From Haloarcula pelagica (GTDB lineage: Archaea > Halobacteriota > Halobacteria > Halobacteriales > Haloarculaceae): a stretch of DNA of 64,000 nt. The stretch is taken from contig NZ_CP126162.1 of the NCBI RefSeq assembly GCF_030127105.1, positions 62,001 to 126,000 on the forward strand, written 5' to 3'. The notes below the pieces were generated by a model. The model searched no databases and was not told where the DNA came from. It saw only the letters and a program-made list of their open reading frames with translations. A program made the translations under genes and the position numbers. Positions within the stretch are counted from its first letter, which is position 1; every line of letters begins with the position of its first letter. This document shows, piece after piece, positions 8,035 through 17,379 of the stretch.

Positions 8035-9213
8035 ATGACGGACGATTCCAGCGGTCACGAAGCACCGACGCGACGCGACTATCTGACGTACGGCGGCGCA
8101 GTCATCGGCGGTGGACTGCTCGCTGGGTGTGTAGGGCAGTCCGGTTCGGGAGACCAGGGGGAACCGACAGACACCGAAACGGCCACACCGGCCACAAAGG
8201 AGTCTCCGACAGAAACGGATTCCTCGTATTCAGTTTCGATGGAGCCCGTCGGAACGGTCGATTTCGACGACGTACCGGAGACGTGGTTCCCGTATACGGG
8301 TGACTATGCGGATATGGGTGTCGCCCTCGGTCACGGTGACGGGCTCGCGGCGATCGGCGTCCGACGACGGTTCGGGGCGCACCACTACGAGGAACTCCCC
8401 GGAGTCTCCGTGGACAAGAGCGAACTCACCCAACTCTGGCAGGACGGGACCGACAAGGAAATCTTCTACGAGATCGACGCCGACGTTCACGTCATCGACC
8501 CCAACTTCATGAGCAACCGACTCCAGTTGAAACAGCGGGATGTCGACGAGATCAGCGAGAACGCCGCGCCCTTCTTCGGCAACACGACGTTTACGAAGGT
8601 CTACGACTGGCACGACTACAGCTACTACTCGATGTACGAGGCCTTCGAGAAGCTCGCAGCGCTGTTCCAGGAGCGCGACCGCTACGAGGCGTTCAAGCGC
8701 CTCCACGACGAGATTGTCGCGAACGTCGGAGAGCGCCTTCCCGAGGAGACGCCGGACGTTGCGACACTCGTTCCCGCGGACGTTCCCCCCGAGGCGTTCT
8801 GGCCGTACCGTATCGGCTCCGGGACGCAGTCCAAACACTGGAACGACCTGCGCGTCGGTGACGCACTGGCGAAAAACGACGTGACGGACGCCCAGGCGGG
8901 TGGCGGGAGGGTCGACTACGAGACGCTGCTGGAGATCGACCCCGATGTCATCGCCATCAGGCTCTCCGGCGAGATCACCCAACAGTGGGTCGACGAGAAC
9001 ATCGTCCCGCACATGGAGAGTCACGACGTGGCGAGTGAACTCTCGGCCGTCCAGAACGACCGCGTCGTCTACGGCGGCATGACCTACCAGGGACCGATCA
9101 TTCATCTCTTCCAGCTCGAAGGAGTAGCTCAGGGGCTCTACCCCGAGGAGTTTGGCGAGGAACAGCTGTTCGACCGCGAGCGCGTTGCGGACATCGTGAA
9201 CGGGAACATCTGA
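8035..9213 (+). CDS. Fe(III)-siderophore/cobalamin-type substrate-binding lipoprotein
   Basis: A 392-residue Tat lipoprotein: RR at 13-14 and lipobox LAGC with Cys32, followed by a Thr/Glu-rich linker and a class III (BtuF/FhuD/FepB-like) binding fold. Motifs include DADVHVIDPNFM, the long helix YEAFEKLAALFQERDRYEAF and the C-terminal LEIDPDVIAI and GVAQGLYPE of this family. It would capture an iron chelate outside the cell. The start is the ATG at 8035, directly after the DtxR-like operator, so it is expected to be induced by iron limitation. No matching permease or ATPase gene is adjacent; the next gene is an FAD oxidoreductase 1 nt downstream. Confidence 0.85.
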   Translation: MTDDSSGHEAPTRRDYLTYGGAVIGGGLLAGCVGQSGSGDQGEPTDTETATPATKESPTETDSSYSVSMEPVGTVDFDDVPETWFPYTGDYADMGVALGHGDGLAAIGVRRRFGAHHYEELPGVSVDKSELTQLWQDGTDKEIFYEIDADVHVIDPNFMSNRLQLKQRDVDEISENAAPFFGNTTFTKVYDWHDYSYYSMYEAFEKLAALFQERDRYEAFKRLHDEIVANVGERLPEETPDVATLVPADVPPEAFWPYRIGSGTQSKHWNDLRVGDALAKNDVTDAQAGGGRVDYETLLEIDPDVIAIRLSGEITQQWVDENIVPHMESHDVASELSAVQNDRVVYGGMTYQGPIIHLFQLEGVAQGLYPEEFGEEQLFDRERVADIVNGNI

Positions 9214-9214
9214 G

Positions 9215-10147
9215 ATGCGCCATTCGGGCCAGCAGGAACGTGATGTCGACCACGACGTGGTCATGGTCGGCGGAGGGCCAGCAGGCTGCGCTGCCGCGCT
9301 GTTTACCGCCCGGTACGGACTCGACACGATCGTCTTCGACAAGGGGAGTGCCGCCCTCCGACGCTGTGCCTATCTGGAAAACTATCTCGGGTTCCCCGGC
9401 GGCATCGAGGTCGGCGTCTTCCACGACCTGATGCACGCGCACGTCCAGAAAGTGGGCGGTGAGATCGTCCCGGAGACGGTCGTCTCGGTCGAACGTGAGG
9501 ACGCGGACGACCCCTTCGTGGTGGAGACGCAGGCGGGACGCAGGTGTACAGCTTCGAACGTCGTCGCTGCGGCGTGGTACGACGGCTCCTATCTCCGCTC
9601 GCTCGACGAGGACGAGATGGTTGCCGAAGACGAACACCACGGTGAAGTGGAAGAACGATTCGACCCGGAGTACGCTGACGCGGACGGACGAACCCCGATC
9701 AAGGGGCTGTACGTCGCGTCGCCTGCTGGCGGCCGGAGCGCACAGGCCATCGTCGTGGCCGGACACGGCGCACACGTCGCTCGATGCCTGCTCGAAGACC
9801 GGCGTCGCCAACGCGGGTACTCGGGCGGCGTCGCCCCACATTACGATTGGCTCCGGTCCGACGCCGAGTTCTCAGGTGAATGGGCCGACAGGGGCCGCTG
9901 GCGCGAGTGGTTCCACAACGAGATCGATGCCAGCGGACTCTCCTCCGAACGGCTCGAAGACCTCCGGGAACGTTACATCGACCGCGCGTTCGAGACACGC
10001 CGCACCGACGAGGAAATCGACAAGGAGGCCGAGCGAGGACTCCGGCGTCTCGTCGACACGATCGGGACCGACCGGGTGCTCGACGCTGTCGACGATGCGG
10101 AGATCAAACGGTACGCACGTGACGGAGGCGACCCAGCTAGTGAGTGA
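9215..10147 (+). CDS. thioredoxin-reductase-like FAD oxidoreductase
   Basis: A 310-residue protein with an N-terminal FAD-binding Rossmann motif (GGGPAG, 19-24, followed by the helix FTARYGLDTIVFDKG) and a second FAD motif near TPIKGLYVASPAGGRSAQ. It lacks the CxxC redox pair of thioredoxin reductase and has a non-standard C-terminal helical extension of about 100 residues rich in Arg/Glu. Following an iron-type binding protein by one nucleotide, it may reduce or process an imported ferric chelate; this is inference. Siderophore reductases of the TrxR-like fold and ferredoxin-NADP reductases are alternatives. Confidence 0.72.
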   Translation: MRHSGQQERDVDHDVVMVGGGPAGCAAALFTARYGLDTIVFDKGSAALRRCAYLENYLGFPGGIEVGVFHDLMHAHVQKVGGEIVPETVVSVEREDADDPFVVETQAGRRCTASNVVAAAWYDGSYLRSLDEDEMVAEDEHHGEVEERFDPEYADADGRTPIKGLYVASPAGGRSAQAIVVAGHGAHVARCLLEDRRRQRGYSGGVAPHYDWLRSDAEFSGEWADRGRWREWFHNEIDASGLSSERLEDLRERYIDRAFETRRTDEEIDKEAERGLRRLVDTIGTDRVLDAVDDAEIKRYARDGGDPASE

Positions 10148-11093
10148 CTTACAACTCGACTGTGAAGGGGTCGAGGGGGCCGAACGACTCCAGTCCCTAT
10201 CAGCCGTCGTCGAGGACTACCTCCTCGTGTGGGTTCTCCTTTCAGTCGGTCTCGGTCTCACCGTCACTGACATAGCCGCCATTACTGACTTCTCGACGGG
10301 TATTCTTGCGGTGATGATCGGGAGTATCTCGCTGACGCTCTCGACCAGGCAATTCAGGCAAATCGATGGTCGCTCGGTCGGGCTCGTGCTACTCGGTCAC
10401 GCGACAATGCCTGTGCTCGCATTTGGCATTGCGCGTCGCCTCGGACTGTCCCCGGAGTTGGTTGTCGGGTTCGTCGTACTGGGGGCCGTGACGCCGGAAC
10501 TCGTCACGCCGGTGATGACTGAACTCGCAGGTGGCGACACGGCGCTGTCGACGACGGCCTTGGTGGTCGTCGGTGTCGGTAGTCTCGGGTTCGTTCCCGC
10601 GGTTGTCACCGTGCTTGCCGGGGGTGTTACCGTTCCAACGCGGCCGATAGTCGAGCAACTCGTCGTGGCCATGGTTGTGCCCATGTTGCTCGCGGTCGGC
10701 CTGCGAGCACGGTGGCCCGAGCGCGTCGGCGCGTACGACGCTCATTACCCGGCTGTCTCTGCCACGATGGTGGTCCTGATTATCGGCGGTGTGACTGCCG
10801 CGAACGCCGCCGCCATCCGTTCTAACATCGGTCTGTTGCCGGGTGTCGTGGCCGGCGTCGTGGCACTGAACGGCCTCGGCTACGGCACCGGCTATCTGGT
10901 GAGTTACCGTGCGGAGAGAGCCACCCGCATCGCGTCAGTGCTCTCGGTAGGGATGCGCGATTTCGCAGTTGCGGCCGCACTCGTGATTGCGGCCGGCCTG
11001 CCGACGATCGCGTCGCTTCCTGCAGTCGTCTTCGGTGTCGTGGAGATGACAACGAGTGCTGGACTGGCGAAGTGGTTCGACCGGGCGGGGTGA
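10119..11093 (+). CDS. BASS/ACR3-fold membrane transporter
   Basis: A 324-residue protein with nine to ten hydrophobic helices and the duplicated fold of bile acid:Na+ symporters (for example GFVVLGAVTPELVTPVMTELAGGD and IASVLSVGMRDFAVAAALV). The family moves organic anions or exports arsenite. I place the start at the GTG at 10119, inside the end of the preceding gene; a GTG at 10140 is an alternative. The overlap suggests co-expression with the FAD oxidoreductase and the iron-type binding protein. It converges with the CC-motif gene one nucleotide away. Substrate is unknown; metal-chelate or metalloid export are possible. Confidence 0.75.
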   Translation: MTEATQLVSDLQLDCEGVEGAERLQSLSAVVEDYLLVWVLLSVGLGLTVTDIAAITDFSTGILAVMIGSISLTLSTRQFRQIDGRSVGLVLLGHATMPVLAFGIARRLGLSPELVVGFVVLGAVTPELVTPVMTELAGGDTALSTTALVVVGVGSLGFVPAVVTVLAGGVTVPTRPIVEQLVVAMVVPMLLAVGLRARWPERVGAYDAHYPAVSATMVVLIIGGVTAANAAAIRSNIGLLPGVVAGVVALNGLGYGTGYLVSYRAERATRIASVLSVGMRDFAVAAALVIAAGLPTIASLPAVVFGVVEMTTSAGLAKWFDRAG

Positions 11094-11094
11094 G

Positions 11095-11433
11095 CTACGC
11101 TGAGGCGACCTCCAGGCGGTCAACTAACCCGTTCCGGAACAGCTCTGTCGTCCCGTCGGGGCCAGAGACGGTCAAGCGAGTTTCCTCGAAGGGGGGTGAA
11201 ACCGTGATTTCGTACGCGGCGAACGAACAGCACTGCAATTCACTCGCCGTGAACTCAGCCAGTGCTTCGAGCGACGTATCCGTGCCATCGAAGCGGACGA
11301 CGACACCGCTCTCGTGGTCCTCGGACCCGAGGTAGTGCTCGACGAGACGGGCTCGGATCTCTTCTCGCCCTTTTGCTTCCTGTTCCTCGGTGAGTGTACA
11401 CGTGACCTCGCTCTCGGAGTCATGCTGACTCAT
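11095..11433 (-). CDS. small CC-motif protein of a probable heavy-metal locus
   Basis: A 112-residue acidic protein of unknown function. The central SELQCCSFAAYEI segment carries vicinal cysteines C68-C69, and the C-terminal half has a GPDGT turn. It resembles small proteins with an ECCPF-type motif found beside mercury and arsenic resistance genes in bacteria, recalled from family knowledge and not tested here. Vicinal cysteines would bind soft metals. Its promoter contains the operator at 11463-11487, whose AT end forms a TATA box 29 nt before the ATG, and the same arrangement precedes the MerB-like gene, so the two are probably co-regulated by the divergent HxlR gene. Confidence 0.6.
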   Translation of the reverse strand: MSQHDSESEVTCTLTEEQEAKGREEIRARLVEHYLGSEDHESGVVVRFDGTDTSLEALAEFTASELQCCSFAAYEITVSPPFEETRLTVSGPDGTTELFRNGLVDRLEVASA

Positions 11434-11462
11434 CGCACACGCTACTTTGGATACTGAACTAT

Positions 11463-11487
11463 TTATACTGTCAACTCCGAAGTATCG
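11463..11487. promoter_or_regulatory. operator of the HxlR/CC-protein divergent promoter
   Basis: A 25-bp element (TTATACTGTCA...CCGAAGTATCG) with ATACT/AGTAT inverted ends. It recurs at 12663-12687 with only two differences. It lies between the two divergent genes and overlaps a TATA-like sequence (11460-11467) usable in both directions. Confidence 0.65.
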
Positions 11488-11511
11488 AACACGGTGTGGT
11501 GAGCAAAAGCG

Positions 11512-11895
11512 ATGCCAGACACTCCCGATTCAGCGACTGAAACGGCTGATTCGTCGCGTCCCGACCACGAGTGTCTCTGCCCGGTCGGCGGCGTGATGGA
11601 CCTCCTCAGCCGACGATACGCGATGCAACTCGTTTGCGTGGTCGATGCGATCGGCCCGGCCCGGTACGGTGATATCGAGGAGACATTCGAGCAGGTGAGT
11701 AGTTCGACACTCTCGACGAGACTCGACGAGCTCGTAGAGGCCGGGATTCTTTCCCGCGAGCAGTACGCCGAAATCCCACCACGCGTGGAGTACGAACTCA
11801 CCGAGACCGGCGAAGAACTGGGGGAGCGCCTCGAACCACTGCTCGAGTGGGCCGAAAAAGCCGACGCGCCGGAACTCCAAGTGGACCAGAAGTAG
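11512..11895 (+). CDS. HxlR-family winged-helix transcriptional regulator
   Basis: A 127-residue regulator with the HxlR layout: CPVGGVMDLLSRRYAMQLV at the start of the wHTH, a recognition region SSSTLSTRLDELVEAGILSRE and a wing followed by VEYELTETGEEL. Besides the usual Cys near the N terminus it has C21, C23 and C42, which could sense thiol-reactive metals. It diverges from the CC-motif gene, with a 25-bp operator between them that is repeated before the MerB-like gene. It is the best candidate for the local repressor. HxlR regulators are usually linked to electrophile or redox stress. Confidence 0.88.
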   Translation: MPDTPDSATETADSSRPDHECLCPVGGVMDLLSRRYAMQLVCVVDAIGPARYGDIEETFEQVSSSTLSTRLDELVEAGILSREQYAEIPPRVEYELTETGEELGERLEPLLEWAEKADAPELQVDQK

Positions 11896-11975
11896 AGCGG
11901 TGCGCTACACGGGTACCGACACGTAGCGAACCCCGAGCACGGCCCGAGAACCGGAGAGAGCAATGCTCTCCAGGC

Positions 11976-12635
11976 TCATTCGGCACTCTCTGCCGGAGCG
12001 GTCGCGGTCAACGCGGCGGCGATTGGTACACCGTCGTCGAGCGGGATGCCGACTGTGGTGGCCGCCACGTCCGTCGTCCAGCGTTCGTAGTCCTCGCGGG
12101 TGTGGAACGCCTTCACGTACGGACAAACGGCTCCGTACACGTCCGACGCCGAGGGCGTCTCGTCGGTAGGTAGGTCACTTTCAGGAGTCACACCGAACGA
12201 CATGACCGCATCTGGTGGCGTGACTTCGGCACCGTTCTTGGGTGACATCTCGATCGCAACGGGCTCTGCCGAGGGAGTTTCAGTCCGGATCCGGACTGGC
12301 TCGTCGACGAGACGTGCGAGCGCGATACCGTCGTAGAAACACCGGAAATAGTAGGTTTCCTTCGGTGTCTTCGCGTAGTGTGGAGTCTCACCGTCGACGT
12401 GGCAGAGTTCCTCGAGAGCGATGCCGTCGCCCTCGACCACAGTGCGAATTGCTGTGATCATATCCTCGAGCGTGTCGATCGAGTGGCTGAAGAACCGACT
12501 CACGTTGTCTCCCACGGCCGCCGGGAGCGCTGCGGTCCTCACTGGCCGCTCTTCGATCCAACTGTCCGTCTCCGTGAGTTGACGCTCCTTCTTATCGACC
12601 GTTAGAGCAGTGCAATCGCAGTCTTGGTCCGACAT
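11976..12635 (-). CDS. merB: MerB-like organomercurial (alkylmercury) lyase
   Basis: A 219-residue protein with an N-terminal winged-helix part and the MerB catalytic fold. The catalytic residues are visible: C99 and D102 in RCFYDGIALARL (equivalent to Cys96 and Asp99 of the plasmid enzyme) and C171 in VCPYVKAFHTREDYERW (equivalent to Cys159). MerB cleaves the carbon-mercury bond and hands Hg2+ to MerA; no merA is in the window. The N terminus has an extra CDC (C6, C8). Its promoter has the same operator and TATA spacing as the CC-motif gene. Family members lacking mercury activity exist, so the substrate is unproven. Confidence 0.78.
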   Translation of the reverse strand: MSDQDCDCTALTVDKKERQLTETDSWIEERPVRTAALPAAVGDNVSRFFSHSIDTLEDMITAIRTVVEGDGIALEELCHVDGETPHYAKTPKETYYFRCFYDGIALARLVDEPVRIRTETPSAEPVAIEMSPKNGAEVTPPDAVMSFGVTPESDLPTDETPSASDVYGAVCPYVKAFHTREDYERWTTDVAATTVGIPLDDGVPIAAALTATAPAESAE

Positions 12636-12662
12636 ACGACATCACATTTATTTTCGAAGTTA

Positions 12663-12687
12663 TTATACTGTCAAGTCCGAAGTATTG
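12663..12687. promoter_or_regulatory. operator of the merB-like gene
   Basis: A 25-bp element matching 11463-11487 at 23 positions. Its AT-rich end (TTATACT, TATA-like on the minus strand) is 27 nt before the merB-like ATG at 12635, so a bound repressor would exclude TBP. Confidence 0.65.
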
Positions 12688-16626: not shown

Positions 16627-17184
16627 TCAGTCGGCGTCTGCCGGCGTATCGAAGTCGTGGAAGTGCTCACCTTTCTCCTTCGAGAGGATATTGAGGGCAG
16701 CAGCAGCCCCGTCACCGGCGGAGATGATCGCCTGCCACTCCTCGGAACGGACCATCGCGCCGGTCGCGTAGGCGTTCTCGACGCTCGTCTCCATCGTCAC
16801 GTCGACATCGACGACGCCGTCCTCGGTAACCGCACAGCCCAGTTCCCCGGCGAGGTCACGATTTGCACCGGTTGCGAGGACGATGTAATCGGCAGCACAG
16901 CCCATGTCGTCGGCGACGACGTGGAACTCCGAGCCGTCCTTGATTACGTCGGTGACTTCGTGGCCCTGGTTCAGTTCGACGCCGAACTCGTCTACCTGGT
17001 CACGAGCGACATCCAGGAAGGACTCACCGCCGATCGACTCGATTCCGAGATAGTTGAACAGGTGCGCCTTGTGCAGCCACGTCGCGTCCGTGTCGAACAG
17101 CGTGGTGTCGAGCCCGTTCTTCGCGGTGAACAGCGCCGCACTCAATCCCGCTGGTCCGCCGCCGATGATAACCACGTGTGGCAT
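16627..17184 (-). CDS. short FAD-dependent oxidoreductase (thioredoxin-reductase-like)
   Basis: A 185-residue single-domain flavoprotein with the FAD motif GGGPAGLSAALFTAKNGLDTTLFD near residues 8-30 and the C-terminal FAD loop VENAYATGAMVRSEEWQAIISAGDGAAAALNI. The NADPH-binding domain and CxxC pair of thioredoxin reductase are absent, so it is about 60 percent of the usual length. I start at the ATG at 17184 because upstream residues are not part of the Rossmann strand. It might work with a separate reductase partner. It is monocistronic. Confidence 0.75.
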   Translation of the reverse strand: MPHVVIIGGGPAGLSAALFTAKNGLDTTLFDTDATWLHKAHLFNYLGIESIGGESFLDVARDQVDEFGVELNQGHEVTDVIKDGSEFHVVADDMGCAADYIVLATGANRDLAGELGCAVTEDGVVDVDVTMETSVENAYATGAMVRSEEWQAIISAGDGAAAALNILSKEKGEHFHDFDTPADAD

Positions 17185-17379
17185 AGACCCACATAGGTCG
17201 GCTGGTCTCATAATTGTTCGCGGCCGGCACCACCGGTACCGGAAGATCGTCGTGTTCGGTTCCTAAGGGCGGAAAATAAGCGGTTGCGCTGTCTGCTACG
17301 CGAGGCTTCGGTGCCGAGATCGTGCGGGAAAAGTTGGGCCGCCGACAGAATCAACTCCGAAGAGGTAGTTAGAACGACT

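Follow-up and report, generated by a model that had tools for sequence, protein, structure and literature searches.

Introduction

Archaeal merA genes have often been described as having no linked regulator. A review of mer regulation names only two regulator families, MerR and ArsR (PMC3466566). The haloarchaeal system described here resembles the bacterial MerR-controlled mer operons in that the regulator lies beside merA or merB, often in divergent orientation, and is thiol-rich and expected to bind Hg(II). It differs in that the regulator is an HxlR-type winged-helix protein whose operator covers the archaeal TATA region, from which occlusion is inferred, whereas MerR acts at a long-spacer sigma-70 promoter; moreover, haloarchaeal merA and merB usually reside in different genomes. 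With the mer repressors of the ArsR type, namely MerR in Sulfolobus solfataricus and its counterpart in Streptomyces lividans, the system shares a winged helix and an expected thiol-based release from DNA, but the haloarchaeal regulator belongs to another family (HxlR, PF01638), has another cysteine arrangement and is tied to both merB and merA.

The regulator itself is most closely related to the HxlR/DUF24 proteins, comprising HxlR, HypR, YodB and CatR of Bacillus subtilis and QsrR of Staphylococcus aureus, with which profile comparison reveals a common winged-helix fold and whose sensing N-terminal cysteine (Cys11 in HxlR) is matched by C23 of the haloarchaeal protein. The haloarchaeal clade is distinguished from these regulators by a CxC motif plus a cysteine on helix 2, by an operator of its own and by its targets, merA, merB and the gene of a CC-motif protein. 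The lyase-like product of the locus shares the PF03243 domain, and equivalents of C96, D99 and C159, with MerB of Escherichia coli R831b (PDB 1S6L and 3F0O); it differs in a divergent N-terminal part, in the lack of merA in the genome and in the HxlR gene at the locus. Compared with a canonical mer operon, the locus thus has HxlR in place of a MerR or ArsR regulator, and no merA. The earlier note on this DNA took HxlR control of an organomercurial lyase with no merA close by to be apparently new, and no relevant open-access literature linking HxlR with mercury, merA or haloarchaea was found, although coverage of subscription journals was poor and an earlier description cannot be excluded. With a dedicated haloarchaeal HxlR clade, the protein families of mercury sensing would increase by one, and archaeal merA would gain a linked regulator candidate.

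Organization of the locus

The window, that is, the whole stretch of 64,000 nucleotides analysed, is part of a 479-kb contig in a haloarchaeal genome of 4.46 Mb. The locus comprises a gene for a CC-motif protein on the minus strand (11095-11433; 112 amino acids, no known family), an HxlR-family regulator gene on the plus strand (11512-11895; 127 amino acids, PF01638) and a merB-like gene on the minus strand (11976-12635; 219 amino acids, PF03243). The regulator gene is therefore divergent from the CC gene and convergent with merB, an orientation overlooked in the earlier note, and because of this arrangement two operators are needed to serve three genes.

Adjoining the CC gene is a gene for an SBF/BASS-family transporter (10140-11093, plus strand; PF01758, 45 bits). 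An SBF-type gene adjoins CC/HxlR in several relatives, but its link to the locus is positional only, as the transporter gene has no operator of its own and no cysteine is common to all ten aligned relatives of the protein. It is directly preceded by a gene for a FAD oxidoreductase (9215-10147), which, like the binding protein gene at 8038-9213, is not conserved next to merB in relatives. Two thioredoxin-reductase-like FAD proteins, both with partial Pyr_redox_2 matches, were noted, at 9215-10147 (plus strand) and 16627-17211 (minus strand).

The MerB-like protein and the absence of merA

The MerB domain was recognized with 58.4 bits against a PF03243 cut-off of 27, and when profiles are compared with MerB structures (E 5e-8) the CxxD motif comes into alignment. 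C99, D102 and C171, which had been noted from the sequence as intact, align with C96, D99 and C159 of MerB, and all three are retained in 74 of 75 haloarchaeal relatives. Since the scores fall far below both NCBIfam equivalog cut-offs (40.2 against 193 bits and 35.6 against 200 bits), cleavage of organomercury by this protein is considered probable but unproven; the activity is inferred, without activity data.

The earlier note had also reported that no merA lies nearby, and this extends beyond the locus to the genome, where the best score to the mercuric reductase family TIGR02053 is 348 bits, below the cut-off of 454. The closest MerA-like protein encoded there (L024) was considered and rejected as MerA; it has CLNRGC, a His-rich tail and no C-terminal CC. 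By comparison, the full-length MerA proteins listed from relatives' loci of this HxlR clade have a CVNVGC redox site (CxxxxC) and a C-terminal SCC.

Across 391 genomes of the class, merA occurs in 54 and merB-type genes in 58, and both are present in only five, where eight would be expected by chance; thus, 53 of the 58 merB-bearing haloarchaeal genomes lack merA. Given such limited co-occurrence, haloarchaeal merB usually works without merA, as in the window. Euryarchaeal genomes with merB reported in 2021 numbered eight, and about half of all merB genomes then had no merA, leaving their handling of Hg(II) unexplained; MerB without MerA would free Hg(II) inside the cell, with effects expected to be harmful (PMC8261052).

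A haloarchaeal HxlR clade linked to merB, merA and CC genes

That the regulator belongs to the HxlR family, as first proposed from the sequence, is well supported (PF01638, 69.1 bits against a cut-off of 20.8; HxlR matched in a PDB profile search, E 1e-17). When 112 HxlR proteins were placed in a tree, the haloarchaeal members formed a single branch of 74 rows with an SH-aLRT support of 100, within which many forks are unresolved because few alignment columns are available. For as many as 70 of these 74 there is a link to merB, merA or a CC gene, four having no such neighbour, and the merA-linked members form one subgroup. An HxlR gene of this type was found at 44 of 75 haloarchaeal merB neighbourhoods sampled, more than half, and at every merA locus examined; these came from a separate merA search, in which the best match from each of 30 genomes was fetched (30/30 with the adjoining HxlR) and weaker matches were not all included. 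The CC gene adjoins this HxlR in 21 of the 26 class genomes that have it, and clade loci without merB, recovered by operator pattern or HxlR scan, mostly carry a divergent merA or CC gene.

The merA found beside the clade encodes a mercuric reductase, as judged from a TIGR02053 score of 533 bits against 454 for one representative (L068). In the HypR-MerA pair of S. aureus a thiol-sensing regulator likewise adjoins a gene named merA: there, HypR is an Rrf2 protein and MerA a disulfide/hypothiocyanous acid reductase, whereas the haloarchaeal MerA reaches only 229 against a cut-off of 650 for the hypothiocyanous acid reductase family.

The reading preferred here is that the locus is a haloarchaeal mercury-response regulon, in which an HxlR-family repressor controls mercury genes; we assign it a probability of roughly 0.72. 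Mercury compounds as the physiological inducer are an inference, in which we place the same degree of confidence.

Cysteines of the regulator

The extra cysteines that had drawn attention to this HxlR protein are C21 (11572-11574), C23 (11578-11580) and C42 (11635-11637). The conserved N-terminal sensing cysteine of the family is present, since C23 takes the alignment position of Cys11 in B. subtilis HxlR, which is the formaldehyde-reactive residue and a known electrophile sensor. In the B. subtilis HxlR structure, helix 2 of the partner subunit packs near Cys11, with Met26' occupying the space; the same alignment makes M38 the equivalent of Met26 and locates C42 one turn further along that helix. 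Because the pairing of C23 with Cys11 and of M38 with Met26 places C42 on the partner helix, a metal site formed between subunits by C21, C23 and C42' is proposed, which remains an inferred model and not a measurement.

The cysteine pattern follows the neighbouring target gene. Nearly all members of the clade have C21 and C23, and this CxC motif is common in the wider archaeal HxlR family. The third position, in contrast, co-varies with the target type, so that all three cysteines occur in 43 of 44 merB-linked and 11 of 11 CC-linked members, while serine replaces C42 in all 15 merA-linked members. As the rows are related, the pattern reflects a few evolutionary changes rather than 70 independent ones. 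The complete CxC...C pattern is absent from the HxlR paralogues of the same genome.

A contig scan of genomes was run with the HxlR alignment, in which the lower ranks are taken by generic HxlRs from archaea and bacteria. The CxC-bearing members of the wider archaeal family (L083-L116) derive from methanogens, Methanoperedens, Thaumarchaeota and Bathyarchaeota, and several have an operator-like TTAAACTATCAAGTTTAAAGTT site in front. One metagenome bin labelled Mollicutes contains an HxlR of the haloarchaeal merA type (L070); the contig is probably misbinned.

The CC protein and the nature of the inducer

The CC-motif protein announced in the earlier note displays three cysteines, C12, C68 and C69, that are invariant in an alignment of 15 relatives. 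No sequence match to it was found in Pfam or PDB. An AlphaFold model was obtained with a mean pLDDT of 80; a fold search with it showed no more than a weak resemblance to the ArgR C-terminal domain (VIA Z 9.3, 83 residues; Foldseek best E 0.04), which was not read as kinship. Damage is apparent in two CC genes of other genomes, one split over two frames (L151:3607-4125) and one truncated (L177:4264-4482), and in both cases operator and HxlR are retained.

Two genomes encode a fusion of the CC domain with an arsenite methyltransferase (PRK11873, 335 bits with a cut-off of 263). Both fusion genes (L261:2786-3979 and L265:2717-3988, minus strand) are divergent from an HxlR of the same clade and share its operator, and because of them an inducing role of arsenic stays possible. 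They are the main support for the view that the primary role of the regulator is to sense As(III), or soft metals in general, by means of a three-cysteine site. In this view the CC protein binds As(III) as a partner of ArsM, and merB has been recruited into an arsenic or soft-metal regulon. The three-cysteine pattern of the CC- and merB-linked regulators agrees with this explanation, as As(III) prefers three thiols. It has to contend, however, with a clade that is linked to 44 merB loci and to 30 of 30 merA loci as against two ArsM fusions, with a merA-linked subclade that has just two of the three cysteines, and with the fact that merA is not known to contribute to arsenic resistance. A primary response to arsenic or to soft metals in general is thus judged unlikely, though it is the strongest competitor of the mercury regulon.

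A second possibility is that the protein is an ordinary sensor of thiol or electrophile stress, to which mercury is merely one of several thiol poisons. Family members HypR, YodB, CatR and HxlR respond to HOCl, diamide, quinones, allicin and aldehydes through the equivalent N-terminal cysteine (PMC6943732, PMC7835342), so that known relatives sense oxidants, quinones and aldehydes by the very residue that C23 represents, and the CxC motif extends to the wider archaeal family. Against this, the targets are the mercury-specific merA and merB together with the CC gene, not general reductases; almost the entire clade is dedicated to these three, and the co-variation of the third cysteine with target type is a further objection. 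General thiol stress is accordingly given little credence as the primary signal.

The operator

Two 25-bp elements, reported in the earlier note, lie at 11463-11487 (operator 1) and 12663-12687 (operator 2). They are identical at 23 of 25 positions and form the sole pair in the window at up to three mismatches (none expected from shuffled sequence); genome-wide, the pair formed by their 22-bp core is likewise the only one in 4.46 Mb. Within the 64 kb, perfect TACT-N11-AGTA dyads occur in these two elements alone, at 11466-11484 and 12666-12684. Operator 1 is the predicted main site for the divergent promoters of the CC gene and hxlR, the end of its 22-bp core lying 27 nt from the hxlR start, and operator 2 is predicted to serve the merB-like gene, which it precedes. 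The element appears duplicated because merB, being convergent to hxlR here, has an operator copy of its own. An additional dyad, TACTTTGGATACTGAACTA, escaped the first reading; it is located on the CC side at 11443-11461, 23 bp from operator 1, and departs from the consensus at one of eight arm positions. A degenerate counterpart before merB (12643-12661) is off at three of eight arm positions, with the CGAAGTT half retained. The minus-strand TATA-like sequences proposed earlier do overlap the elements: TATAAATA of the CC gene occupies plus-strand positions 11460-11467, 27-34 nt from the start of that gene, and TATAATAA of merB lies at 12660-12667, 25-32 nt from its start.

Conservation of the element was evaluated at the 75 haloarchaeal merB neighbourhoods, allowing up to five mismatches in 22. 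It was detected in 43 of the 44 loci with HxlR and in only one of the 31 without (Fisher, 1e-18), and at this single exception it precedes another HxlR gene. In shuffled merB loci the best match never had fewer than seven mismatches. When searched as a pattern with up to two mismatches, the element matched 51 of the 391 class genomes, and a reversed control pattern gave no match among those listed for the same 391. The aligned sites present a TACT-N11-AGTA dyad with conserved asymmetric inner bases, CTGTCAAGTCCGAA, and at 58 of 74 main sites a second dyad is found exactly 23 bp away on the side of the target gene, compared with a mean of 0.4 per other offset. Spacing to the start codon is also constrained: of 71 hxlR genes, 52 start 27 nt from the end of the operator, and of 41 merB genes, 27 start 27-28 nt from it, which means that its AGTATA end falls at the position expected for the TATA box of a leaderless haloarchaeal transcript. 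The element is found alike at hxlR, merA and CC genes, the merA-linked operators being more diverged (4-8 mismatches). The HxlR clade and related operators recur at other haloarchaeal loci as a class-wide system, where the first reading had a single locus.

An HxlR-controlled MerB-like gene with a duplicated operator thus gains strong support from conservation, although binding and lyase activity are inferred. Even in the absence of binding data, we have hardly any doubt that this HxlR has its operator in the element. Conservation as a mere core promoter (BRE/TATA) without a regulator site, which would account for the overlap with the TATA region and the fixed distance from start codons, is rejected, because the element tracks HxlR, is missing from 30 of 31 merB loci that lack it, occurs nowhere else in the genome, is shared by hxlR, merA and CC genes and has dyad symmetry, with another dyad in phase 23 bp off.

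Proposed mechanism

In the mercury regulon as we envisage it, a winged-helix HxlR dimer would bind the TACT-N11-AGTA dyad, at most loci together with the second dyad 23 bp off. The bound dyad would cover the TATA region of promoters that are divergent and probably leaderless, and by inference the dimer would block access of TBP/TFB on both sides, thereby repressing hxlR itself, merB and the CC gene. HxlR of B. subtilis is an activator, and repression is for this reason inferred from the TATA overlap alone. C21 and C23, where helix 1 begins, would capture Hg(II) or organomercury, probably with C42 of the partner subunit, and the metal-loaded dimer is predicted to release the DNA, allowing MerB and the CC protein to be made. 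MerB would then cleave organomercury, and the CC protein, through C12, C68 and C69, probably binds the released Hg(II), replacing the MerA that is absent from the genome; this role is likewise inferred.

Taken as a whole, the scheme would represent a third solution to mercury sensing in evolution, in which HxlR carries an inter-subunit thiolate Hg site of C21/C23 and C42', with two thiols where the regulator is merA-linked, and a MerB-without-MerA pathway delivers Hg(II) to the CC protein. In this full form it is tentative, with slightly less than an even chance of being correct in every part. It bears on the handling of Hg(II) in organisms that have MerB without MerA, for which the CC protein is a concrete candidate, and the operator and cysteine patterns provide sharp predictions in a genetically tractable group.

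merB loci without the HxlR regulator

A second type of haloarchaeal merB locus lacks HxlR. At two such loci (L181 and L183), and at similar ones among L176-L208, merB lies beside a copper-type P-type ATPase gene, together with an ABC-2 transporter and a convergent gene whose product looks like a regulator of the HTH_10 (bacterio-opsin activator-like) type, these families having been named by eye. One neighbour family is common to 23 of the 31 merB loci without HxlR, as against two of the 44 with it. Loci of the L181/L183 type are likely to have separate regulation of merB.
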